Shown: positions 380 to 64,000 of the stretch, piece after piece
Numbering within the stretch: the first letter of the stretch is position 1
Layout: each line of letters begins with the position of its first letter
NCBI RefSeq assembly: GCF_047495875.1
Contig: NC_092497.1
Location: forward strand, 6,230,937 to 6,294,936
Length of the DNA: 64,000 nt
Origin: Pithys albifrons albifrons
Taxonomy: Eukaryota; Chordata; Aves; Passeriformes; Thamnophilidae
Reading direction: 5' to 3'
The notes under the pieces: model-generated
The model's database searches: none
Told to the model about the DNA's origin: nothing
The model's input: only the letters and a program-made list of their open reading frames with translations
Position numbers and translations under genes: made by a program

Positions 380-953
380 TCCATTCAAATGTGAAACAGT
401 ACAGTCGAAAATGGTTCCCAGTCTCTGACTGTAGGTCCCTTATAGGAGAAAAGTAAGGACATGTAAGAGCAGAAGTCAGGAAGACAAAGGCACAAAACGA
501 GGTGTTATTAGCAATGGAAGTAAAATGGATAAAGGAAAAGTTTTCCAAGAGTCTAAGAAATGAAACATGGACAAAAGAAAATGTTAAGTCTGCCATGCAG
601 CAGAGAGGAAAGAAGCAGATAATGGATATTAATAAGAATTGTTAAATACTTGATGGGTTTGATGCTTTAGCTGTCAATGAAAAGGTAGTGATAGTTGACA
701 AATGGAGAGAGAGGTCACAAGGCAGAATTAAACCAGCCATGGTTAAAGAACAGTATGACCTGAACATCGTCACATAAGCAAGGGCTGATGAAATTTATAC
801 TGTTAAAGTGTCCGCCAAGAATTGCAAAGGAAACTTTAAAATCTATTTTTGAGAACCCATTGAGATAGTCCAAGTGAACTGGGAAAGGGTGGTTACCTTC
901 TGGGATTTGAGGGAAGCTTATCAGTGGAAGTGCAAGTCAGAAAATTCATCTTC
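380..953 (+). pseudogene. Possible decayed coding sequence of unknown origin
   Basis: One plus-strand frame runs from about 390 to 950 (roughly 185 codons) with only about four in-frame stops, at about 450, 643, 775 and 849. AT-rich DNA of this kind would normally give about three times as many. The translation has a protein-like mix of charged residues and tryptophans, for example WTKENVKSAM and NWERVVTFWDL. I do not recognise the family. It could be an eroded processed gene, an old transposon or viral-derived coding piece, or chance. The AviRTE-like LINE at 960-4976 is inserted directly at its right end. If the LINE and one target copy are removed, the same frame continues past 4983 for some 50 codons, again with few stops. 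No start codon, splice signals or poly-A tail help to decide. Confidence 0.25.
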
Positions 954-959
954 TTTGGT
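954..959. repeat. Target site duplication of AviRTE-like copy 1 (left)
   Basis: TTTGGT here matches TTTGGT at 4977-4982 on the other side of the LINE. This marks the insertion boundaries. Confidence 0.75.
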
Positions 960-960
960 C

Positions 961-961
961 C

Positions 962-992
<31 letters not shown>
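961..992 (-). repeat. (ATG)n 3' tail of AviRTE-like copy 1
   Basis: About ten CAT units on the plus strand (ATG on the element strand) directly follow the LINE's last unique bases. RTE elements end in short tandem repeats rather than poly-A. Confidence 0.8.
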
Positions 993-1042
993 GGGTAGGC
1001 TTCGCGAACAAAGATTTGGGAGGGGCACTACCCATGCTGGCT

Positions 1043-1190
1043 TCAAGCGTGCTGGTGGTTAAAAAGGCCGATATGGGATAGGCAGGTCCAGTCACAAAAA
1101 GCACAGCGGAACGTCTCCCTAGATGATATTGGTGAGGAACAGTTTTTTCTGCGTTGTCTTTTTTCCTTGAGACTGACTGCATGCATTCTC
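1043..1190 (-). pseudogene. AviRTE-like C-terminal zinc-finger-like end
   Basis: The minus-strand frame here reads FRCAFCDWTCLSHIGLFNHQ and ends at HA-stop. It has a C-x2-C pair followed twelve residues later by a histidine, like a C2H2 or C2HC nucleic-acid-binding finger. The final ligand is missing: the frame ends in TGA at the place where a cysteine would complete H-x3-C. This piece is in a different frame from the preceding 1119-1490 segment, so a frameshift lies near 1190. Its role in the family is presumably RNA or DNA binding at the end of the polyprotein; that is inference. Confidence 0.6.
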
Positions 1191-1490
1191 AAAGGAAACA
1201 GCAGCGTCATGAATGGTGTGTGTCCATAAATCCTGATTGGAGGCCAGAGTGGACCATTGATGGCAGTCAATATGGCCAAGGCTGAGGTGTTGTTTCAGGG
1301 AGTCCTTGTATCTTTTCTTCGGGGCTCCTCTCTTGCGACAGCCAGTGGTGAGTTCACCATAGAGCACAATGTTTGGGAGGTGGTGATCCTCCATCCTGGA
1401 GACGTGCCCTGCCCAGTGCAGCTGCGTTCTCATCAGCATGGCCTCGATACTGCTGACCCCTGCCTGTTCAAGAACAGACACATTGGTCAC
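1119..1490 (-). pseudogene. AviRTE-like post-RT segment
   Basis: This 123-codon minus-strand stretch lies downstream of the reverse transcriptase, in the same frame as the RT segment but separated from it by stops between about 1490 and 1683. It contains GHVSRMEDHHLP and a basic patch KRGAPKKRYKDSLKQHL, both typical of the region after the polymerase in RTE- and Jockey-like LINEs (RMxDxRLP, then RG.P..R..D). I assign it by order and by these motifs. It has no independent function. Confidence 0.75.
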
Positions 1491-1682
1491 GTAATCAGAC
1501 CAGTGGATGTTTAGGATTGAACGGAGGCAGCGCTGATGGAAAGGTTCGAGAAGTCGCAGGTGGTGGCAATAGATGACTCATGATTCAGACCCATATAAAA
1601 CAGTAGACAGTACAATGGCTCTGTAGACACTGATCTTTGTACTTTTCTTCAAGTGTTTATTGGACCAGACTCTTTTATGGAG

Positions 1683-2792
1683 TTATCCAAAGGCTCTGTA
1701 TGCCTTTGTTAGCCTGTTGTCTATCTCCTTGTCAATCTTACCATCTGAGGAAATGATTCTTCCCAGATAGGTGAACTGCTGAACTGAATTAAGCTCTGAA
1801 TTGCTTATGGTGATGTGACGATAATGGAAGACTTCTTGAGGTGCAGGTTGGTAGAGAACTTCTGTCTTCTTCAAGATGACTTCCAGCCCAAAAAGCTCAG
1901 CAGCCTCTACAAAACAGGATGTTAAGCACTGCAGAGCTGCTTCTGTGTGAGCAATGAGGGCGGCATCATCACCAAAAAGCAGCTCGCGGACAAGGTGATT
2001 CAGGGTCTTGGTGTGGGCCTTCAGTCGCCTTAGGTTGAATAGGCTTCCATTGGTACAGCATTGGATGTAGATGCCGTTTTCTTCATCGACATCTGCTGTG
2101 GCTCTTTGGAGCATCATGCTGAAGAAGATTGTGAATACAGTTGGTGCAAGAACACAACCTTGTTTCACACCATTGGTTATTGGAAAGGGCTCAGAGAGTG
2201 CATCGCCATATCTGACTTGTCCACGCTGATCCTCATGTAGCAGGATGATCATTTTGAGGAACTTGTGGAGACATCCTAAACGTTCCAAGATCTGCCACAG
2301 GCCTTTTCTGCTCACACTGTCAAAAGCTTTGGTGAGGTCAATGAAGGTTACATAGAGTCCTTTCTTTTGTTCCCTACACTTCTCTTGCAGTTGTCTGAGA
2401 ACAAACACCATGTCTGTGGTACTCCTGTCGGCTCTAAAATCACACTGGCTTTCAGGTAGAAGTTCTTCTGCAATAGTGGGTATTAATCTGTTCAGAAGTA
2501 TTCTTGCAAGGATTTTACCAGCAATGGAGACCAAAGTAATAGCTTGGTAATTTGAGCAGTCTGATTTTTCTCCTTTCTTCTTGTACAGGGTGATGATGAT
2601 TGCGTCACAGAGATTTGATGGTAGTTCCCCTTGTTCCCAGCAACGTACAACAAGCTCATGAAATTTGGCATGGAGTGCTTGACCTCCATGCTTCCAGATT
2701 TCAGGTGAAATTCCATCAACCCCAGCTGCCTTGCCACTTTTCACCTGCTGTATGGCCCTAAGTCTCTCTCCCATAATAGGGGCTGCATTCAA
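1683..2792 (-). pseudogene. AviRTE-like reverse transcriptase domain
   Basis: This is a 369-codon uninterrupted minus-strand frame that would copy element RNA into DNA at the nicked target. The motifs appear in the expected order: KSGKAAGVDGISPE (residues 18-31), TLYKKKG (68-74), NYQAITL (81-87), FIDLTKAFDSV with the first catalytic Asp (150-160), NGVKQGCVLAP (207-217), FGDD as the polymerase YxDD box (273-276) and TYLG (341-344). Both Asp of the DD pair are intact. A single in-frame TAA at about 2793-2795 separates it from the upstream linker, and another stop ends it at 1683, so the whole protein is not made. Length and motif order fit RTE-clade LINEs well. Confidence 0.88.
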
Positions 2793-3179
2793 TTAATTTT
2801 TCACCAGTTGTTGTGTAATGTGCTGAATCGCTGAGCCTTGGACTACACGTCTGGCACTGAAGAGAGTCTGAAAATGTTCAGACCATCGGTTCAGGATGGA
2901 AGTTTTATCTGTGAGAAGCATTTGACCACCTGCACTGAGTAGGGGGCTTTGAACCTGGTGTGTGGATCCGTACACTGCTTTCAGGGACTCATAGAATCCT
3001 CTTTGGTCACCCAAATCTGTGCATAGTTGTGTCTTTTCTGCTAGGCTGAGCCACCATTTGTTCTGGATGTCTCGAAGTTTCTGTTGGAGCTTACTGCATG
3101 CACGAAGAAAGGCAGCTTTTCTTACACGGCAAGATGGCTGAGCAAGGTGTGCTTGGTGAGCAGTTTTCTTCTTCAACAA
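2793..3179 (-). pseudogene. AviRTE-like endonuclease-RT linker
   Basis: This 128-codon segment is in the same frame as the endonuclease and RT parts. It is rich in basic and helix-forming residues, with QRGFYESLKAVYG and LTDKTSILNRWSEHFQTLF, a linker signature found just before the RT in many RTE- and Jockey-type LINEs. Stops lie between 3179 and 3333. The same segment is recognisable at the right edge of the window in copy 2 (near 63,820-64,000). Confidence 0.75.
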
Positions 3180-3332
3180 TTCCTGGATCTCTTGACTGTT
3201 TTCATCAAACCCATCTTTGTTTTTCTTGGAGGAGAACCCTAAGGACTCTTCAGAGGACTGCAGGATGCTATTTTGAATATGTTGCCAAAGTGCTTCAGGA
3301 GAGGGATCTATGGGATTATCTTTAAGTCTCGT

Positions 3333-3917
3333 TTAAAGGTTTACCTGGAATCTGTCTCTCACTGTGGCTGTTTGAAGATTGCTGACTTGGAGCCTCCTGC
3401 TTGGAATGCCACCTCTCTTAGGTTTGGGCGTGAAGTGGAGGTTAAGTTTGCAATGCACAAGGTGATGGGCTGTTTGACATTCTGCACTAGGCATCACTCT
3501 GGTACAATGGAGACCACCAACATTTGTCTGTTGCACTAAGACATAGTCAATGAGGTGCCAGTGCTTGGATCGAGGAGGCATCCAGGTTGTCTTCAGTCTG
3601 TCTTTCTGTTGAAAGGTAGTGTTGGTGATGGTGAGCTGCTGTTCCGCACAAATCTCTTGCAGGAGGCATCCATTGTCATTGCAGTTTCCAAGGCCATGCT
3701 TGCCCAGGACTCCTTTCCAGGCTTCAGAATTCTTACCTACTCTGGCGTTGAAGTTACCAAGGATTATGATCTTATCAGCTGCAGGAACATTTTGGGTGAG
3801 GCGGCGCAGGTTGGTGTAGAATTTGTCTTTTACCGCTGGGTCAGCTTGTAGAGTTGGGGCATATACACTAAAAAGAACAACATGTTGCTTGTTGTGTAGT
3901 GGGAGGCACAGGGACAC
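3333..3917 (-). pseudogene. AviRTE-like endonuclease, C-terminal two thirds
   Basis: This 194-codon minus-strand frame belongs to the apurinic/apyrimidinic-type endonuclease that nicks target DNA. Visible motifs are VLFSVYAPT, IILGNFNARVG (the family motif is GDFN, so the catalytic Asp is changed to Asn), SKHWHLIDYVLV, and TAHHLVHCKL at the place of the family's (S/T)DH motif, again with the Asp lost. Two catalytic acidic residues are therefore gone, independent of the frameshifts. It joins the N-terminal piece at 3938-4222 through a frameshift near 4045. Confidence 0.85.
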
Positions 3918-3937
3918 AAAATGATCGGAATGACCTG

Positions 3938-4222
3938 TCAGCAGATTTTCAAGTTTGGAGGCAATGGAGTTTTCAATCGTGAAGCCAACTCCTGAAAGGT
4001 GACTTTTGGTTTTGGGTTTGCCTGACCAGTAGAGTGTGTAGCCAGCACCATGTTCTTTAAGGCTCCTTCCTCATGAAGACGAACTTCACTGAGAGCAGCA
4101 ATGTCAATGTTGACTTGTGACAGTTCGTGTGAAATTGGAACAGAACAATGCTCAGGACGTCCACTATCCCCAGTATCAAGCATGGTTCTGATTTTCCAAC
4201 ATGCAAGTGTTAGTTTGAGCAC
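3938..4222 (-). pseudogene. AviRTE-like endonuclease, N-terminal part
   Basis: The frame opens with LTLACWKIRTMLD, matching the N-terminal strand of AP-type endonucleases (family form: WNIRTM, here WKIRTM). It continues through NIDIAALSEVRLHEEG, where the E of SEV is the conserved metal-binding Glu. After EEGALK the frame shifts, and the remaining residues are out-of-frame. Copy 2 has the same region near 62,670-62,900 with an intact SEVQLHEEG. Confidence 0.8.
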
Positions 4223-4224
4223 AC

Positions 4225-4976
4225 CTTTGCAGGCAGGTGTATGCCTTTGAAATCTCCTTGTCTTTGTTTGACCGCATGGAAGATGCTGGTTGGCCGTGGT
4301 TATCCAACCGGGTGTGGAGATGAGCTTTGTTTAGGCCACCTTTGCTAGGCCACTCTCCATGTGGAGCAAGCAGTGCTGTCCTTAGAAAAGGCTGCTTGGT
4401 CGTTCAGGATGCTGCGTCAAGAGACTGTCATCTCCGGGATCAAGACTCTAATGGCCAATATCCTGAACCACCTGCATGCAGGGTTGGGTCTGCAGCTTCC
4501 AGCTGCTTCCTATCACCTGCCATTTTCTACCCTTGCCTGTTGCTACAGGGCTTTGCAATATGGGTGAACCCTTCAAGCCTGTGCAGTGGATTTTTTAGTT
4601 GAGGCACAGCGTGCGCAGAACTGGCCCCACCCTTTGGTCCTAAGGTTCATCTGCCACAGCCTAGTGAGCTTGGACGGTGACAGTGAATACATCAGGACGT
4701 AGGTTTGGTTAGAGTATCCTTCTCTTGGATGGCCTTAGAGGGCTAAGCGAGCTCCACCTGCCTGGGTTTGGTGTTGGAGTTGTCCTTCTCCTAGGATGGT
4801 TGCCAGACAGCTTGCGAGCCCATCCTGCCCGTGGACACATTTCATCTGACCCTTCAGCTGAGACCTGTCTGGCATGGGAGACCCTATCGGAAACACAAAC
4901 CACCACCAGCATAGCTCTCAACCTCAAGAGGGCACGCAAGCTTCTCCCCCGCAACAAGGGGGTGTCCCCGGAGAAG
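4225..4976 (-). other. AviRTE-like 5' untranslated / leader region
   Basis: About 750 bp of GC-rich sequence precede the endonuclease frame and align along their length with 61,910-62,660 of copy 2. The stretch 4561-4702 also matches the body of the short retroposon at 53,341-53,487. A sense frame at 4709-4976 (GRSLRALLRL, RVSHARQVSA) is shared with copy 2. Whether this is a small upstream ORF or only a leader is unknown. Confidence 0.7.
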
Positions 4977-4982
4977 TTTGGT
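4977..4982. repeat. Target site duplication of AviRTE-like copy 1 (right)
   Basis: TTTGGT, identical to 954-959. Confidence 0.75.
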
Positions 4983-14741: not shown

Positions 14742-15526
14742 AGTTCAATAAGGCCAAGTGCCGGGTCCAGCACTTTGGCCACAACAACCCCATGCAGCGC
14801 TACAGGCTGGGCACAGAGTGGCTGGAGAGCAGCCAGGCAGAAAGGGACCTTGGAGTACTAATTGACAGGAAGCTCAAGATGAGTCAACAGTGTGCCCAGG
14901 TGGCCAAGAAGGCCAATGGAATCCTGTCCTGTATCAAAAATAGCGTGGCCAGCAGCACCAGGGAAGTGATCCTTCCCCTGTACTCTGCATTGGTGAGGCC
15001 ACACCTTGAGTGTTGTGTTCAGTTCTGGGCCCCTCAGTTCAGAAAGGATATTGAGGTGCTGGAGTGAGTCCAGAGAAGAGCAACAGGGCTGGTGAAGGGA
15101 CTGGAGCACAAGCCCTATGGGGAGAGGCTGAGGGAGCTGGGGTTGTTTAGCCTGGAGAAGAGGAGGCTCAGAGGTGACCCCATCACTGTCTAGAACTACC
15201 TGAAGGGAAGTTCTAGCCAGGTGGGGGCTGGTCTCTTCTCCCAGGCACTCAGCAATAGCACAAAGGGGCACGGGCTCAAGCTCTGCCAGGGGAAATTTAA
15301 GTTGGATATCAGAAAATAATTCTTTCCAGAGAGAGTGCTCAGGCATTGGAATGGTCTGCCCAGAGAGGTGGTGGATTCACCATCCCTAGAGATTTTTAAA
15401 CGCAGATTGGACGTGGCGCTGAGTGCCATGATCTAGTAAATGGACTGGAGTTGGACCAAGGGTTGGACTCGGTGATCACGGAGGTCTTTTCCAACCAAAT
15501 CGATTGTATGATTCTATGATTCTATA
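14742..15526 (+). mobile_element. 5'-truncated young-looking CR1 LINE
   Basis: The copy starts at GTTCAATAAGGCCAAGTGCC, inside the end of ORF2. A plus-strand frame at 14,792-15,067 encodes the C-terminal CR1 motif series: [46 protein letters not shown]. The 3' region follows, with CAGAGAGGTGGTGGA and CTTTTCCAACC, and ends in two to three ATTCTATG-type octamers (about 15,503-15,526), the hallmark CR1 tail. It is closely similar to the 3' end of the copy at 30.19-32.91 kb. The frame is interrupted, and a 5' truncation of this extent excludes activity. Confidence 0.93.
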
Positions 15527-31491: not shown

Positions 31492-32398
31492 TTGGAAGTT
31501 GGGAAATGTCATGCCAATCTACAAAAAGGGCTGCGAGGAGGACCCAGGCAACTACAGGCTTGTCAGCCTGACCTTGCTGCCTGGCAAGGTTATGGAGCAG
31601 ATCATCCTGATTGCAATCACACAGCACCTACAGGATGAACAAGGCCTCAGACCCAGCCAGCATGGATTTAGTAAGGACAAGTCCTGTCTGACCAACCTGA
31701 TCTCCTTTTATGATCAGGTGACCCGCATGGTGGATGAGGGGAAGGCTGTGGATGTGGTTCATTTGGACCTCAGGAAAGTCTTTGACACTGTCTGCCACAG
31801 CATCCTGCTGGAAGAACCGTCAGGCTATGGCTTGGACAGGAACACTCTGTGCTGGGTTAGGAGCTGGCTGGAGGGCCGGGCCCAGAGAGTGCTGATGAAC
31901 AGGGCTGTGTCCAGATGGCAGCTGGTCACCAGTGGTGTCCCACAGGGGTCAGTGTTGAGCCCAGTTTTGTTTAACATCTTTATCAATGCCTTAGAGGAGG
32001 AGATTGAGTCTGTCATTAACAAATTTGCAGATAACACCAAGTCGGGTGGCACTGTAAGCCTGCTGGAAGGCAGGAGGGCTCTGCAGAGGGACCTGGCTAG
32101 ACTTGAGAGATGGGCTGATTCCAGTGGGAACAAGGCCAATTGCCGGGTCCTGAACTTTGGCCACAACAATCCCATGCAGCACCACAGGTTGGGGACAGAG
32201 TGCCTAGAGAGCAGCCAGGCAGAAAGGGACCTGGGGGTTTGGATTGACAGGAGGCTGAACATGAGCCAACAGTGTGCCCAGGTGGCCAAGAAGGCCAATG
32301 GAATCCTGGCCTGTATTAAGAATAGTGTGGCCAGCAGGACCAGGGAAGTGATCCTTCCCCTGTACTCAGCACTGGTGAAGCCATACCTTGAGGATTGA
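31433..32398 (+). pseudogene. CR1 ORF2 reverse transcriptase and C-terminus
   Basis: A 321-codon uninterrupted frame with the polymerase motifs in order: MPIYKKG (27-33), NYRLVSLT (40-47), [11 protein letters not shown] (110-120, catalytic Asp kept), [19 protein letters not shown] (167-185), and FADN (198-201; nt 32,024-32,035) where the family has FADD. The second Asp of the catalytic pair is thus Asn, which should abolish DNA synthesis. The C-terminal [15 protein letters not shown] and [14 protein letters not shown] follow. It stops at TGA (32,396-32,398), just after a Cys-to-Asp-type change in the PHLEC region, and similar sequence continues beyond. Confidence 0.93.
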
Positions 32399-32910
32399 GG
32401 CCACACCTTGAGTATTCTGGGCACCTCAGTATGGGAGAGATATTGAGGTGCTGGAGTGGGTCCAGAGAAGAGCAACGAGGCTGGTGAAGGGACTTGAGCA
32501 CAAGTCCTATGAGGAAAACTGAGGGAGCTGGGGTGGTTTAGCCTGGAGAGGACGTGGCTCAGGGGAGACCTTATCACTCTCCACAACTACCTGAAGGGAT
32601 GTTGTAGCCAGGTAGGGATTGGTCTCTTCTCTCAGGCAAGCAGCAGTAGAACAAGAGGTCACGTGCTTAAGTTCTGCCTGGAGAGGTTTAGGTTGAATAT
32701 CAGAAAAAAAGTTCTTTCAGAGAGAGTAATCAGGCATTGGAATGGCCTGCCCGGAGAGGTGGTGGTCTTACCATCTCTGGAGGTTTTTATGATGAGATTG
32801 GATGTGTCACCCAGTGCCATGATCTAGTAATCAAAGTGAGGTTGGATCAAGAGTCAGACTTGATGATCTCAGAGGTCTTTTCCAACCCAGCTTGTTCTTC
32901 TGATTCTGTA

Positions 32911-46619: not shown

Positions 46620-46704
46620 GTATGTATGTATGTATGGCTAGGCTTCACAAATGAAGATTTGGGAAGGGCTCTACCCACGTGGGTGTATCCTTCGAGCCTG
46701 CCAG
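46620..46704 (-). mobile_element. 5'-truncated relative of the AviRTE-driven SINE
   Basis: On the minus strand: GGCAGGCTCGAAGGATACAC, CCACGTGGGTAGAGCCC, TTCCCAAATCTTCATTTGTG, AAGCCTAGC, then a (CATA)n tail. The first part equals the LINE 5'-leader segment used in the composite SINE (53,341-53,487). The second equals the LINE 3' end, with the same junction. It is therefore a truncated copy of that SINE rather than of the LINE itself. The 7-bp flanking repeat TTTGAAT supports insertion as this ~85-bp piece. Confidence 0.75.
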
Positions 46705-46711
46705 TTTGAAT

Positions 46712-52432: not shown

Positions 52433-53154
52433 GAACCAACTCCCCACCTCAGTATCTTTGGCAAACCTCATTATTTTTAAAAACCAGACAGAGGCTCTAA
52501 AAAGGCAGCAAATGCATAAACTGTTTCTTTCTTCTGTTACTGCAGTTAAATAGGATGAAAGTTCTTTGTCTTGCTCTCTCTCTCTAACCTCATGCTGCAG
52601 GTCACTACAATAATGATCTCTCACAGCTGGTTCCCTCATTAAGCTCCTTAGTGATTATATCTTACTAGTTCTCTCATGTAAAACCCAGAAGTTAGGCACA
52701 CGGTGAAATAACCCCTTGATTCATATTCACATGCACGTATAGTTCAAGTATGACACAAGTAACTTTATTGGAGATTTCAAAATAGTATCAGAAATAAATC
52801 CTACTGACAATTTCACCAAATGATACTCACAAACAAATTTAGGAATCAAGAAGAAATCCACCTTCCCTATTCATGATGTAATACTGAAAGACAGAGCTGC
52901 TGCACTGAAGTTAGTAAATTAGACAGAAGATACTGCTACTTCTGATCTCATTTATCACAATAGTTAGGACTTGCAGGCAATTGCGTTGAATTGCACAAGG
53001 ATCTCCATGCTGAATCATAGCTCTCATTATTAGTGTTAGAAGTGTTTTCCCATTTATTAGCAAGTCTATCAGAATATTATTTGTCATTTCCACATGCTAA
53101 AAAACCCCAAACAAACAAACATTCTTCCTGTTTATCATATTAATATTTGAGCCA
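52433..53154. other. Unique non-coding DNA
   Basis: Nothing recognised; it includes a short A/C tract just before 53,120. Confidence 0.5.
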
Positions 53155-53165
53155 TTATGGACTTC
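53155..53165. repeat. 11-bp target duplication of the composite SINE (left)
   Basis: TTATGGACTTC, perfectly repeated at 53,542-53,552. Confidence 0.9.
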
Positions 53166-53171
53166 CAGGGT

Positions 53172-53244
53172 GGTCACATGGTGTAATGGAGAGCACTCAG
53201 GAATCTGAATCCCAAGGTTATGAGTTTGAGTCTCAGTAGGGACT
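53172..53244 (+). other. tRNA-Gln-derived Pol III promoter head of the SINE
   Basis: The 73-nt stretch follows tRNA-Gln closely: GGTCACATGGTGTAATGG with the A box TGGTGTAATGG (53,179-53,189), a CTG anticodon in the context AATCTGAATCC, and the B box GTTTGAGTCTC (53,224-53,234). Mismatches in the acceptor and anticodon stems mean it is not a working tRNA gene. Confidence 0.85.
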
Positions 53245-53270
53245 GTCCCCCATTGGCAGTTAATTGTCTC

Positions 53271-53340
53271 CCTGACATCCGATCCCGCCAGATCTCAGAT
53301 GCTCAGCAGGGTCAGCCCTGCTTAGTACCGGGTGCTTTTA
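53271..53340 (+). other. Partial 5S rRNA-like module in the SINE
   Basis: CCTGACATCCGATCCCGCC, AGATCTCAGATGCTCAGCAG, GGTCAGCCCTGCTTAGTAC and CGGGTGCT match vertebrate 5S rRNA from about its position 20 onward, in order. About 26 nt are missing between TTAGTAC and CGGGTGCT; that interval holds the intermediate element and box C of the 5S promoter. The 5S box A region remains. Confidence 0.8.
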
Positions 53341-53541
53341 GACGGTCATGAGAACTTCACTGTCACTGTCCAAGCTCTCTTGGCCATGACAGATGGACCC
53401 TAGGACTTAAAAAGTGGGGCCAGTTCTGTGCATGCTGTGCCTCAACTAAAAAATCCACTGTGCAGGCTGGAAGGGCACACCTACATGGGGAGACCCCTTC
53501 CCAAATCCTCAGTTGCGAAGTTTGGTCATACGTACGTATAC

Positions 53542-53552
53542 TTATGGACTTC
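53542..53552. repeat. 11-bp target duplication of the composite SINE (right)
   Basis: TTATGGACTTC, identical to 53,155-53,165. Confidence 0.9.
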
Positions 53553-55899
53553 TAAAGTCTGGTGCAGCTGTTCAAGAACTGGTGACATTGACAAAACCAA
53601 TTTCTTTACTGCTGTTTAGCCACGACCAATCCAATGTTTTCTTCTATTCTCTTGAATGAAGTCTGGTCTTCCTTTTCCCTTTCATCTTTTGTAAAAAATA
53701 ATTTTTACATCCCTGAATTGTTTTTTGGTTTTTGTTTTTTGGTTTTTTTTTTATTCTGTGGGCAATAGCTGCCTTTCCTAATTATAAAACTAGAAAAAAT
53801 ATCTTAATGTTGTGGAAAAGTTTTCTTGTATCACACTTCTGTGGAATCAAACAGCTAAATACAACAAGTATGTTGTTGGAAATCTTGTTTGCTTGGGTTT
53901 TTTTTCCTTTCTCTCTGTCTCTTTTTTTTTTTTTTTAATAAAACTTATTTTGAGTGTGTTACATCTCTGAACTCCAGTTCTTGGTACATAAATTTTCAAA
54001 TGTCCAGCTTCAGTTTTCAAGTGAATTCCTTTCCTCTTCAATGTCTTGTTAAACATGATTGGGCCTATATTCCTTCAAATATCTCAATAATTTATTTAAT
54101 TTAGTAAAGCTATATTAAAACAATGTAGCATCAATGAATTTGTGACTCAGAAGAACAATGAAAGTAGTGAAGTCTCCCATATTTATTCTGTAATATAATA
54201 TGTGCACAGCTTTTACAGCCTGTGGTCTATACTACTGCACCTTCTAGTCTTGGTCTCAGGCCAACAGTGTTTTTTCTATTCTGAAATGTTTGAGTTGCAT
54301 CAGTTGAGCCAGTTCCAAGCTCTGCATGTAAAAAAAAAAGGTGCAGTGATGTTTCCATATGTTTTATTTGGGATTATTGTGGTTGGCTAATTCCAAATGG
54401 CTGAAACTGGAAACATCAAACTTAGCAAACCTGTATCATTCATCAAGAGAGGATAGACAGCAAAGCCTCAAAAGAAACAAGATTTAAAGTTATGTATATT
54501 TAAATATGGCATCTTTTCAAGTGCATAAAGACCATTTTTCATTGTATTTTTCATGGTACCCTCCGGCTAGCACCATTTAGTTTACTGGGTGCACATCAAG
54601 TCACTTTAGATTTAAGTTTTCAAGATCTGTTGGGGCAAAATATTTTGTCATACACTTTTGGGTACAAACTTTTTCCTCCTAGAAATAAGGGGGGAAATCA
54701 TCTTCAGTAGCATTGAAATTTAAGCTTTTAAGAAATGCGTTGCATTAAAGAATAATTTTGTGAATAAAAGAAGGTGAACAATAGCTATATCATGGAATGT
54801 TGGCAACCCTAAAAATTAATCTTTCCTGAAAGTATTTGGTTTTGGATACATAAATTTAAAATCACATTTTGACTGTTCAATTACAGTACTTACAGTATTA
54901 TACTTACAGTAACATATAGAAACACATTTTTACCTGTAATTGTAATTTTGAATGAGTAATGTTCTCCATAAACACATGAAGGCACCATTCCCCTTCCACT
55001 TCGTGTTTAGAAAGTAGAGAAACTTTCAAGGAGATTAAGGAGAGCTATTGAGAAACTATCTGATTCGTTGATCCTATTTATACACTTGGAAATGAGGTAC
55101 TTAAAGCAAAGGTGTCCACCCTATTTTAGTTTTACAGTCAGCAAGAACAAATAGCTGGCTTAAAAGAATGTTCCCTCTTCTACCATGATGTACTCTAAAA
55201 TGAGATAGACATATCTCTTAGAAGATGGTTATTTTCTCTATGGACACTTTTTAAAAATTATTTTTAGACATGTTTATTCATATATATATATATTTAAATA
55301 AACACATATAAACACATTTTTTACAAGATGCGTTGATGTACAAAGAAAACTCAGTAATTGGATGACAATTAAAATGTTGCATATCTGATATCTAAAGTTA
55401 GGTGAGCTGAGTACTCCTTTTAACATTAGGTGGCTTCACCAGAGTATGCAGATGAGGTTTGTTTTGGGCTGTATTCTGCATCAGATAACCATGTTTGGTA
55501 TTGCTGTTGCATAAGCATGAACACAAAAGGGATTAAAAGTTTGGAATCCACTCTAGTACAGAAACCTATGGCTGAAGTCTATGTCTTCATAGTCACCTCC
55601 ATAATGATCTTCAGATAACTGCAAGTCAGAATCTGACACCTTTCTCACATCCAATACTACTGCTTCAGGTCTTTGGTTTAACATATTTTTAGGTCTTTTG
55701 AAACATTTCTGCAAAGCTGTCTATGTCTCACTGACTTTCAGTCAGGTAGTACTGATGATTCCTCTTCATTCCTTAGGACTCATCCTTTGGCCCCGAATGA
55801 TTTTTCCACATTTTCAAAAGCAGTGAATTCAGACCCATCTGAACCTTAATTCATCTCTAATATGTCTGATTTTCAGCCTTTATATCATGAGCAGAATTG
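53553..55899. other. AT-rich non-coding DNA with simple tracts
   Basis: Contains a G/T-rich tract (53,718-53,753), a T-rich tract (53,898-53,938) and a TA patch (about 55,280-55,292). No gene was seen. Confidence 0.5.
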
Positions 55900-61600: not shown

Positions 61601-61909
61601 GCACTATTCCTATGAAAAACTATACTACAACATATCAAATATAGCTTAAGTTTATAGGCTTAGCTCTATTTACGTAGCGTTGTATGAGGCTCTATCAGGA
61701 ACCAGGGCAATCTTGGAAAGAAGAAAATGCTCACACAACACAGGAATTGAATAATGTGCAACCACTGGCATTGGGCTTCTTTGTGCATGTATTCTATTCT
61801 GTGATGATAGGTCAGTGGTGGTATGGATACATTCACTATCTGTTACATTTATGTAAGGAGGCATGGCCATGAGGGAGCAAAGCATTTTGGCAAAATTTAC
61901 AGGCTCAAT
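58684..61909. other. AT-rich non-coding DNA with minor repeats
   Basis: Includes an ATAGAT-type patch (58,797-58,842), a (TTTCA)n (59,907-59,932) and a G/T tract (60,190-60,220). At 60,862-60,872 the word GGTTCGATCC resembles a tRNA B box within possible SINE debris. No gene was seen. Confidence 0.5.
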
Positions 61910-62669
61910 CTTCTCTGGGGACTCCCCCTTGTCGTGGGGGAGAAGCTTGCATGCCCTCTTGAGGTTGTGTGCTATGCTGGCAGTGGTTTGTGCCTCTGGT
62001 AGGGTCTCCCATGCCAGACAGGTCTCAGCTGATGGGTCAGACAAAGTGTGTCCATGGGCAGGATGGGCTCACTAGACCTCTGGCAACCACCCTAGGAGAG
62101 GGACAACTCTAACTCCAAACCCGGGCAGATAGAGCTCACTTAGCCCTGTAAGGCCATCCATCTAAGAATACTTTAACCAAACTTACAGCCTGAGGTATTC
62201 GCTGTCACCATCCAAGCTGACTCGGCCCTGGCAGATGAACCTTAGGAGTGAAGGGTGGGACTAGTTCTGTGCACACTGTGCCTCACCTAAAATATCCATT
62301 GCACAGGTTCGAAGGACACACCCACATTGCAAAGCCCTGTAGTGACAGGTGAGGGTTGAAATGGCAGGCAATAGGAAGTCACTGGAAGAGGCCGACCTAA
62401 CCCTGCGTGCAGGTGGTTCAGGATATTGGTCATTCGAGCCTTGACCACGGAGATGACAGTCTTGTGGGGCAGCATCCTGAAAGACCAAGCAGCCTTTTCT
62501 AAGGACAGCACAGCTTGCTCCACACAGAGAGGGGTCTGGAAAAGGTGGCCTAAACAAAGCTCATCTCCACACCCGGTTGGATAACTGCAGCCAGCCAGCA
62601 TCTTGTCATGTGGTCAAACAAAGACAAAGAGAATTCAAAGGCATACACGTGCCTGCAAAGGTGTGTTCA

Positions 62670-63500
62670 AATTAACACTCACATGCTGGAACATCAGAGC
62701 CATGCTTGATACTGTGGATGGTGGATGTCCTGAGCGTCATTCTGTTCTAATTGCCCAAGAACTGTCATGACTCAACATTGACATTGCTGCTCTAAGTGAA
62801 GTTCAACTTCATGAGGAAGGCAGCCTTAAAGAACATGGTGCTGGCTACACACTCTACTGGTCAGGCAAACCCAAAACCAAAAGACACCTTTCAGGAGTTG
62901 GCTTCATGATTAAAAACTCCATTGCCTCCAAACTTGAAAATCTGCTGACTGGTCATTCCGATCACATTATGTCCTTATGCCTCCCTCTACACAACAAGCA
63001 ACATGTTGTTAGTGTATATGCCCCAACTCTCCAAGCTGACCAAGGGAAAAAGACAAATTTTACACTGACCTGTGCCACCTCACCCAAAATGTTCCTGCAG
63101 CTGATAAGATCATAATCCTTGGTGACTTCAGTGCCAGAGTAGGTAAGAATTCTGAAGCCTGGAAAGGAGTCCTGGGCAAGCATGGCCTTGGAAACTGCAA
63201 TGACAATGGATGCCTCCTGCAAGAGATTTGTGCAGAACAGCAGTTCACCATCACCAACACCACCTTTCAACAGAAAGACAGCCTGAAGACAACCCCGATG
63301 CATCCTTGATCCAAGCACTGGCACCTCATGACTATATCTTAGTGCAACAGTGAAATGTTGGTGATGTCCGTCATACTCCAGTGATGCCCAGTGCAGAATG
63401 TCAAACACACCACCGCCTTGTGCATTGCAAACTTAACCTCCACTTTAAGCCCAAACCTAAGAGAGGTGGTATTCCAAGGAGGAAGCTCTAAGTTAACAAT
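62670..63500 (+). pseudogene. AviRTE-like endonuclease of copy 2 (broken)
   Basis: Frames give LTLTCWNIRAMLD (WNIR intact), NIDIAALSEVQLHEEG, GAGYTLYWSGKPK, GVGFMIKNS, VSVYAPT and, after a shift near 63,040, ILGDFSARVGKNSEAWKG (GDF kept, the usual Asn changed to Ser). A stop replaces a residue before NIDIA, and small deletions disrupt the HWHLIDY and TDHH regions near 63,330-63,400. It is therefore inactive by lesions independent of those in copy 1. Confidence 0.82.
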
Positions 63501-64000
63501 CTTCAAACAGCTGCAGTGAGAGACAGCTTCCAGGTACACCTTCAAACTAGACTTGAAGGCCATCCCACAGATCTCTCTCCTAAAGCACTTAGGCAAAATA
63601 TTAAAAATAGCATCCTGCAGACCTCGGAAGAATCCTTAGGGTTCTCCTTCAAAAAAACCCCAAAGACGGGTTTGATGAAAACAATCAAGAGAACCAGAAA
63701 ATGTTTAAAAATAAGTAAATTGCTCATCAGGCACACCTTGCTCAGTCACCTTGCCATATAAAAAAAGCCGCCTTTCATCTTGCATGCAGTAAGCACCAAC
63801 AGAAACTTGAAGACATCCAGAACAAATGGTAGCTCAACCTAGCAGAAAAGACACAACTATGCACAGGTTTGTGTGACCAAAGAGGGTTCTATGAGGCCCT
63901 GAAAGCAGTGTACGGACTCACACACCAGGTTCAAAGCCTCATACTCAGTGCAGATGGCCAAATGCTTCTCACAGATAAAACCTCCATCCTGAACCGATGG
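63500..64000 (+). pseudogene. AviRTE-like linker of copy 2 (broken, partial)
   Basis: Contains the counterparts of SILQTSEESLGFSFKK, then HQAHLAQ- and NKWWLSLAEKTQL-like words out of frame, and LTDKTSILNRW at the window end, in the order seen in copy 1 (2793-3179). Several indels and at least one A-rich disruption (about 63,700-63,765) break it. Confidence 0.7.

Follow-up and report, generated by a model that had tools for sequence, protein, structure and literature searches.

How does a short retroposon come to carry parts of two different genes of the polymerase III (Pol III) type in tandem, and do these parts belong to a single element at all? These questions are raised by a 376-bp short interspersed element (SINE) in a stretch of 64,000 nucleotides of the Pithys albifrons albifrons genome (hereafter the window; C40:6230937-6294936, where Cn are the contig labels of this analysis). 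The element occupies window positions 53166–53541 and has an exact 11-bp target duplication on both sides. An earlier note, made from the letters of the window, had described it as a composite of tRNA-Gln, 5S rRNA and two ends of a LINE within one perfect 11-bp duplication, and this description was confirmed by the exact duplication and by Rfam, ARAGORN and alignments. The parts of the window copy are as follows.

53155..53165: left target-site duplication, TTATGGACTTC, exact
53166..53541, + strand: whole copy of the tRNA-5S SINE with LINE-type tail (genome search, consensus)
53173..53244, + strand: tRNA-Gln-like head (Rfam 19.4 bits, sub-threshold; similarity to the consensus; relaxed ARAGORN)
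53255..53339, + strand: 5S rRNA-derived part, starting at GGCAGTT like the 5S-only SINE (5S alignment)
53344..53481, + strand: piece of the LINE 5' leader (match to the LINE copies of the window)
53486..53530, + strand: LINE 3' end, with a hairpin of the CTTCG-TTCG-CGAAG type in the consensus (LINE match)
53528..53541, + strand: short tail of the (CATA)n type
53542..53552: right target-site duplication, same as TTATGGACTTC, exact

The genome (1.144 Gb, 53 contigs) was searched with the 376-bp unit, as the earlier note had proposed. All 40 scored hits, the best 40 of 4,539 first-look candidates, were near full length with 85–100% identity; those other than the window copy lay at 85–87% and were spread over many chromosomes. 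A consensus of 366 bp was built from all 40 hits, each of which was fetched, and its parts match 5S and tRNA-Gln. We refer to this family of tRNA-5S SINEs, which lacks the 5S C-box and includes the window copy, as T, and to a C-box-less subfamily with a variant tRNA head as T2; 5S-only SINEs are 5S-headed, have an intact C-box and no tRNA head, and share the LINE-type tail. Individual genome loci are numbered Lnnn. The junction left by the C-box deletion in T gave 1,900 genome matches (control, 0), and the copies of T2 have one extra base within this junction. Exact flank matches of at least 9 bp were found for 23 of the 40 T copies and for 11 of 1,560 cross-paired control flanks, and a pairwise comparison of the flanks of the 40 copies gave no pair matching at E 1e-8. 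With the tRNA part alone as query, 40 hits were scored; the 11 loci read from these all contain every part, in one and the same order. Two of the 11, the window copy and L042 (= L013), had belonged to the set before. The element is thus a member of a multi-copy family, by its junction count, single order of parts and differing target duplications. It has the properties of a SINE: many dispersed copies with variable target-site duplications, and a head derived from Pol III genes (Rfam tRNA in L030 and L002, the 5S match, and full 5S in L123 and L124).

The window copy is old, at about 9% K2P without CpG sites from the consensus. Among the fetched copies the median K2P without CpG from their own consensus was 2.2% for 5S-only, 3.6% for T (4.0% in the first alignment) and 1.5% for T2; because the copies are the best hits to each query, these divergences are biased and are not family ages. 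With at most one mismatch, the genome mean was about 1.7 T junctions per Mb and about 1.6 matches per Mb to a C-box-specific pattern. Local concentrations were seen on C1 among the matches listed (the first 100 for each pattern, all on C1): 20 exact T-junction matches at C1:24.0-25.0 Mb, with further ones at 26.3-27 Mb, and 57 exact C-box-pattern matches at C1:2.2-5.05 Mb. Eight of the 40 first T hits lie at C1:24.0-26.7 Mb, and their flanks are unrelated.

The tRNA head of the window copy is decayed. Default ARAGORN and Rfam at gathering scores gave no hit anywhere in the window, and in a scan of 53100–53600 the head (53173–53244) scored 19.4 bits against the Rfam tRNA model, for which the gathering score is 29. 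Less decayed copies exceed this score (L030, 35.6 bits; L002, 30.0 bits). The T consensus was read as tRNA-Gln(ctg) by ARAGORN at a relaxed threshold of 80%, and its positions 5–77 match human tRNA-Gln at 60 of 73 positions (82%) for TTG and at 56 of 68 for CTG. The A and B boxes of the head, recognised by their consensus, presumably constitute a type 2 Pol III promoter. In a fold of the consensus, the leader GGGC (1–4) can pair with the trailer GUCC (77–81), lengthening the acceptor stem of the tRNA.

The 5S-derived part consists of two pieces. Positions 109–158 of the T consensus match 5S nucleotides 29–78 at 42 of 50 positions (84%), and positions 156–168 match nucleotides 102–114 at 13 of 13, the two pieces sharing TAC. 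About 26 nucleotides including the 5S C-box are missing between them, in the window copy at about 53328/53329. The C-box segment is absent from 40/40 T copies and 20/20 T2 copies, and Rfam made no 5S call in the four C-box-less copies that were scanned (L002, L030, L125 and the window copy). The stretch between the tRNA and the recognisable 5S sequence was considered as a free linker, and this was rejected: it is the 5' terminus of a 5S-headed SINE (GGCAGTT...). A shuffle test of the 31 nucleotides against the 5' end of 5S was not significant (368 of 2,000 shuffles were equally good); the identity of the stretch was settled by full-length Rfam 5S matches in L103, L117, L123, L124 and L145 together with the alignment of 5S-only copies.

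The remainder of the element is derived from a LINE, of which the window contains two copies, along with a further fragment of the SINE type.

985..4980, - strand: decayed LINE, apparently full-length (about 4.0 kb), ending in (ATG)n and related to the element that donated the body and tail of the SINE; its 5' end was placed where the two window LINE copies begin to match
61906..64000, + strand: another copy of this LINE, 5' part, cut off by the end of the window
46625..46705, - strand: 5'-truncated 3' end of the SINE type (88% to the SINE consensus), tail (CATA)n; by eye, a 7-bp repeat ATTCAAA

Positions 170–326 of the T consensus match the leader of this LINE with 81–83% identity (window 62185–62338, + strand, and 4698–4547, - strand), and positions 314–357 match its 3' end with 84% (window 1034–991, - strand), which bears out the earlier claim that the body joins a piece of the LINE's 5' leader to its 3' end. 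The leader piece sits about 280–430 nucleotides from the apparent 5' end of the LINE. By layout, the element has the bipartite tail of AviRTE-mobilised SINEs, with a part of the LINE 5' UTR and the 3' UTR. The 3' hairpin CTTCG-TTCG-CGAAG is common to the SINE and the window LINE copy, with one G-U pair in the LINE; all five pairs are intact in 11 of 39 T copies (one of the 40 was unscorable), 14 of 20 5S-only copies and 15 of 20 T2 copies. The tail of the window LINE copy is (ATG)n (window 940–1000), and the SINE subfamilies have (CATA)n tails. The LINE has a reverse transcriptase domain (E 1.9e-29), an endonuclease match of 21.5 bits (cut-off, 27.4) and a short 3' UTR, and at about 4.0 kb its dimensions fit AviRTE as described in PMC4844689. 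By size and layout the partner LINE would be of the RTE type and most likely AviRTE. Two other repeats were noted in the window: a tandem array with an 8-bp period from 48012 to at least 48530, and a dispersed repeat in two copies that are 81–88% identical (14747–15427 and 32129–32818). The dispersed repeat is possibly a CR1 LINE, to judge by its TCTATGATT end at 15467–15521.

The same genome contains a SINE with the 5S head only. The host 5S cluster lies at C11:1.30-1.35 Mb, and a query of host 5S joined to the SINE tail, which favours copies with a C-box, gave hits that align through the C-box; all 20 copies fetched, of 40 scored hits, have it and are without a tRNA head. Their alignments start at consensus position 1–5 of GGCAGTT..., and the Rfam 5S model was matched over positions 1–120 in both copies scanned (L103 and L117). 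Exact duplications of at least 9 bp flank 14 of the 20 copies, against 1 of 462 controls (which include L123 and L124). The C-box-specific pattern matched the genome 1,877 times (control, 0), a count of C-box-intact bodies that includes tRNA-headed copies with such a body, for instance L145.

Loci with both a tRNA head and an intact 5S part were also found. A search with the tRNA head joined to an intact 5S part scored 40 places (42 matches); both parts were present at four (L121–L124), and the other 36 alignments start at query position 79–85, at GGCAGTT, and are 5S-only over the matched span. L123 and L124 are single elements with a tRNA-like head, full-length 5S (Rfam model 1–120; 42.2 and 60.1 bits, respectively) and a LINE tail. 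Their heads are 87–88% identical to the family tRNA head; that of L124 scores 26.2 bits with Rfam tRNA, under the gathering score of 29, and no tRNA was called at E 1 for L123, the T2 copy L125 or L145, so the identification of these four heads rests on similarity to the family head. TAGTAC...GAATAC, the repeats on either side of the C-box deletion, is present in both L123 and L124. No clear target duplication was found at L123, and that of L124 is imperfect and was identified by eye. A second query, consisting of the T head and the C-box, recovered L121–L123 and added L145, and did not find L124; at the remaining 36 the alignment reaches only query position 156–165, up to the C-box.

At L121, L122 and L145, what appears to be a variant tRNA head sits on a C-box-intact body of the 5S-only type. 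The heads of L121 and L122 were read by ARAGORN as Arg, not Gln. L145 (C1:2878070-2878640) has a full 5S (Rfam 51.9 bits, model 1–120); this locus, which sits inside the C-box-pattern hotspot of C1, may have undergone local gene conversion or an exchange of heads. At L121 (C17:12914500-12915700) and L122 (C10:29766400-29767600), a 5S-only SINE and a tRNA-headed SINE stand head to head, each with its LINE-type tail facing outwards. An exact 13-bp duplication, TTCCCCTCCTTTG, encloses the whole pair at L122, which would fit two cDNAs that were primed at the two ends of a single break and then joined; L121 shows no clear target duplication. A query that ran from the variant tRNA head into the start of the 5S part, stopping before the C-box, gave 40 places at 96–100%, of which 21 were read: the top hit, L122, has the C-box, and the 20 fetched T2 copies are without it. 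Exact duplications of at least 9 bp were counted, without control, at 15 of these 20 copies. The tie between the tRNA head and the loss of the C-box is strong, not absolute.

The order of events was approached with trees of the 5S and LINE part, computed with FastTree and IQ-TREE and rooted on a chimera of host 5S and window LINE (one locus, as L013 and L042, is present twice among the 49 T rows). The 5S-only copies are paraphyletic at the base, followed by R_L116, L124 and L123 and then by a clade of the C-box-less T and T2 copies. Support for the four key nodes was moderate (UFBoot 85, 75, 87 and 69; FastTree 0.85, 0.84, 0.92 and 0.83), and two further trees gave the same branching order. 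The bodies of L121, L122 and L145 group with young 5S-only copies. In the 5S part, 5S-only copies keep the host base at four substitution columns (45, 51, 71 and 75), and the C-box-less family keeps it at column 128 and at two one-base indels (94 and 124), all at or beside the deletion. For the LINE part, agreement with both window LINE copies is seen in 5S-only copies at columns 153 and 201 and in the C-box-less family at 249, with 240 mixed. Because the source bases are split between the two, the C-box-less family and the 5S-only SINEs are sisters that share a C-box-intact ancestor, and neither is the parent of the other. At column 71 L123 and L124 have the base of the C-box-less family; like that family they lack the two extra bases, and they keep the C-box. 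The best reading of these sequence data is that a tRNA head was added to a 5S SINE precisely at the 5' end and that the 5S C-box was then lost, which would amount to a change from a type 1 to a type 2 promoter. The earlier note had proposed that an internally deleted AviRTE-like copy acquired a Pol III head; the fusion of leader and 3' end stands, and the order needs revision, in that a 5S-headed bipartite SINE would have come first and the tRNA head later.

Other explanations differ in how well they accommodate these observations. With one 11-bp duplication enclosing the entire unit and collinear near-full-length matches at all 40 scored hits, in the order repeated at the 11 tRNA-query loci, it is hardly credible that the tRNA, 5S and LINE parts are separate neighbouring insertions peculiar to this locus; nothing was found in favour of this, and it was rejected on finding a multi-copy family, the junction matches excluding a single copy. 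The stretch of 5S nucleotides 29–78, kept at 84% in the T consensus, might mean that the 5S remnant still contributes to promoter function and that both heads are used, for example the tRNA boxes together with the remaining 5S A box and intermediate element. We consider this improbable, given that the C-box segment is gone from every T and T2 copy inspected and present in 20 of 20 5S-only copies by the C-box query.

Rather more weight, though still little, is due to a head swap, in which a separate tRNA-headed SINE and a 5S SINE were combined by recombination or template switching and L123 and L124 are later recombinants instead of ancestors. Exchange does seem to occur, as the variant heads on 5S-only-type bodies at L121, L122 and L145 indicate, and the T-like intermediates number only two, L123 and L124, which could themselves be recombinants. 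Against the swap, these two loci adjoin the C-box-less family in the trees and share its GGATG variant of the 5S part, found in 40/40 C-box-less copies (19 of 20 5S-only copies have GGAAG), and among the 11 loci of the tRNA query that were read, none has a tRNA head without a 5S part. A head swap is therefore unlikely, and we prefer the gain of a tRNA head by a 5S SINE followed by loss of the C-box.

The preferred history would run as follows. The element would be non-autonomous, a retrotransposon that relies on the machinery of a LINE of the RTE type, most likely AviRTE, and is recruited via its LINE-type 3' end for target-primed insertion. A 5S rRNA head would have joined an internally deleted LINE, consisting of the 5'-leader piece and the 3' end, to give the 5S SINE. 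A tRNA-Gln-like sequence would then have been joined exactly to the 5' end of this SINE, most simply by a template switch of the reverse transcriptase from the SINE RNA to a tRNA. A 26-bp deletion between two TAC repeats would subsequently have removed the C-box. The C-box is the main TFIIIA contact of 5S, and on this ground transcription would be expected to depend thereafter on the A and B boxes of the tRNA. The 5S-only line would have stayed active in parallel, and tRNA heads were probably exchanged later onto 5S-only bodies, as the variant heads on the C-box-intact bodies of L121, L122 and L145 suggest. Gain of a head by template switching at the 5' end of SINE RNA is discussed for RTE SINEs in the accessible part of PMC7245038, and template switching for L1 chimeras in that of PMC13174262. 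The parts, the insertions with their duplications, the subfamilies and the three promoter states are seen directly in the sequences; promoter use, the template switch and dependence on the LINE are inferred from them. We regard this history as a whole, from LINE mobilisation through the 5S SINE and the gain of the tRNA head to the loss of the C-box, as likely. A wider claim is that a retroposon lineage switched its class of Pol III promoter: a TFIIIA-dependent 5S SINE gained a tRNA promoter at its start and then lost the C-box, two subfamilies arose as the double-headed form spread, the starting, both-intact and end forms coexist, and tRNA heads joined 5S bodies repeatedly. To this claim in full we would give an even chance.

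In the parts of Suh et al. 2016 available to us (PMC4844689), AviRTE SINEs with bipartite tails comprise ManaSINE1 (tRNA-Glu head), GymnSINE (5S), BuceSINE and ManaSINE2 (GC-rich heads) and MeloSINE (28S). A bipartite tail is published there and, for other RTE SINEs, in PMC7245038 (available text), and was rejected as a novelty. GymnSINE, from the antbird lineage, has a 5S head and a tail of AviRTE 5' and 3' UTR, a description that fits the 5S-only SINE found here; by description, to which the comparison is confined, shared identity and independent origin are both possible. Unlike the T family, GymnSINE is not described with a tRNA head in those passages of PMC4844689, and the window element, with its tRNA-like start and without a C-box, does not have 5S as its 5' end. 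ManaSINE1, of manakins and tyrant flycatchers, combines a tRNA head with the same kind of bipartite AviRTE tail as T; its head is tRNA-Glu with no 5S part described in the same passages, whereas the T consensus is Gln(ctg) by relaxed ARAGORN and contains 5S.

For the hagfish SINE1-1_EBu/SINE2 families, with bipartite RTE tails, stepwise head capture and internal deletion of RNA-gene parts are proposed by the author (PMC7245038); the heads are 7SL or tRNA, and the portion consulted describes no tRNA-then-5S double head. Helicoverpa HaSE1 and HaSE3 have tRNA and 5S heads on a common body and an RTE partner LINE for the shared tail; according to the available text (PMC3272025) each has one head, 5S replacing tRNA rather than following it in tandem, and boxes A, IE and C are reported for HaSE3. 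The springhare SINEs Ped-1 and Ped-2, which have 5S and tRNA heads and share an RTE-clade partner (BovB), are given in the accessible part of PMC3747384 as separate families with a single head each. A tandem tRNA and 5S head with an AviRTE or RTE tail was not found in the literature searched, seen in part and with most subscription journals outside its scope, and Repbase or Dfam may hold a relative of the double-headed SINE. Fruit-bat SINEs reportedly include composites of tRNA- and 5S-derived units (work of Gogolevsky et al. in 2009); these are mammalian and are said to be without an AviRTE tail, and priority for a composite tRNA and 5S head as such may belong to them. What is new here is the double head and its visible stages, the bipartite body being already known.

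SINEs often change heads, and the steps are usually inferred from end products. In this genome the 5S-only, double-promoter and C-box-less forms are all present, and their coexistence makes it testable whether a retroposon that captures a new promoter at its 5' end can become independent of TFIIIA, with decay of the old promoter as the consequence. Should AviRTE be the partner LINE, tandem tRNA-5S heads would also extend the diversity of AviRTE SINEs reported in 2016.
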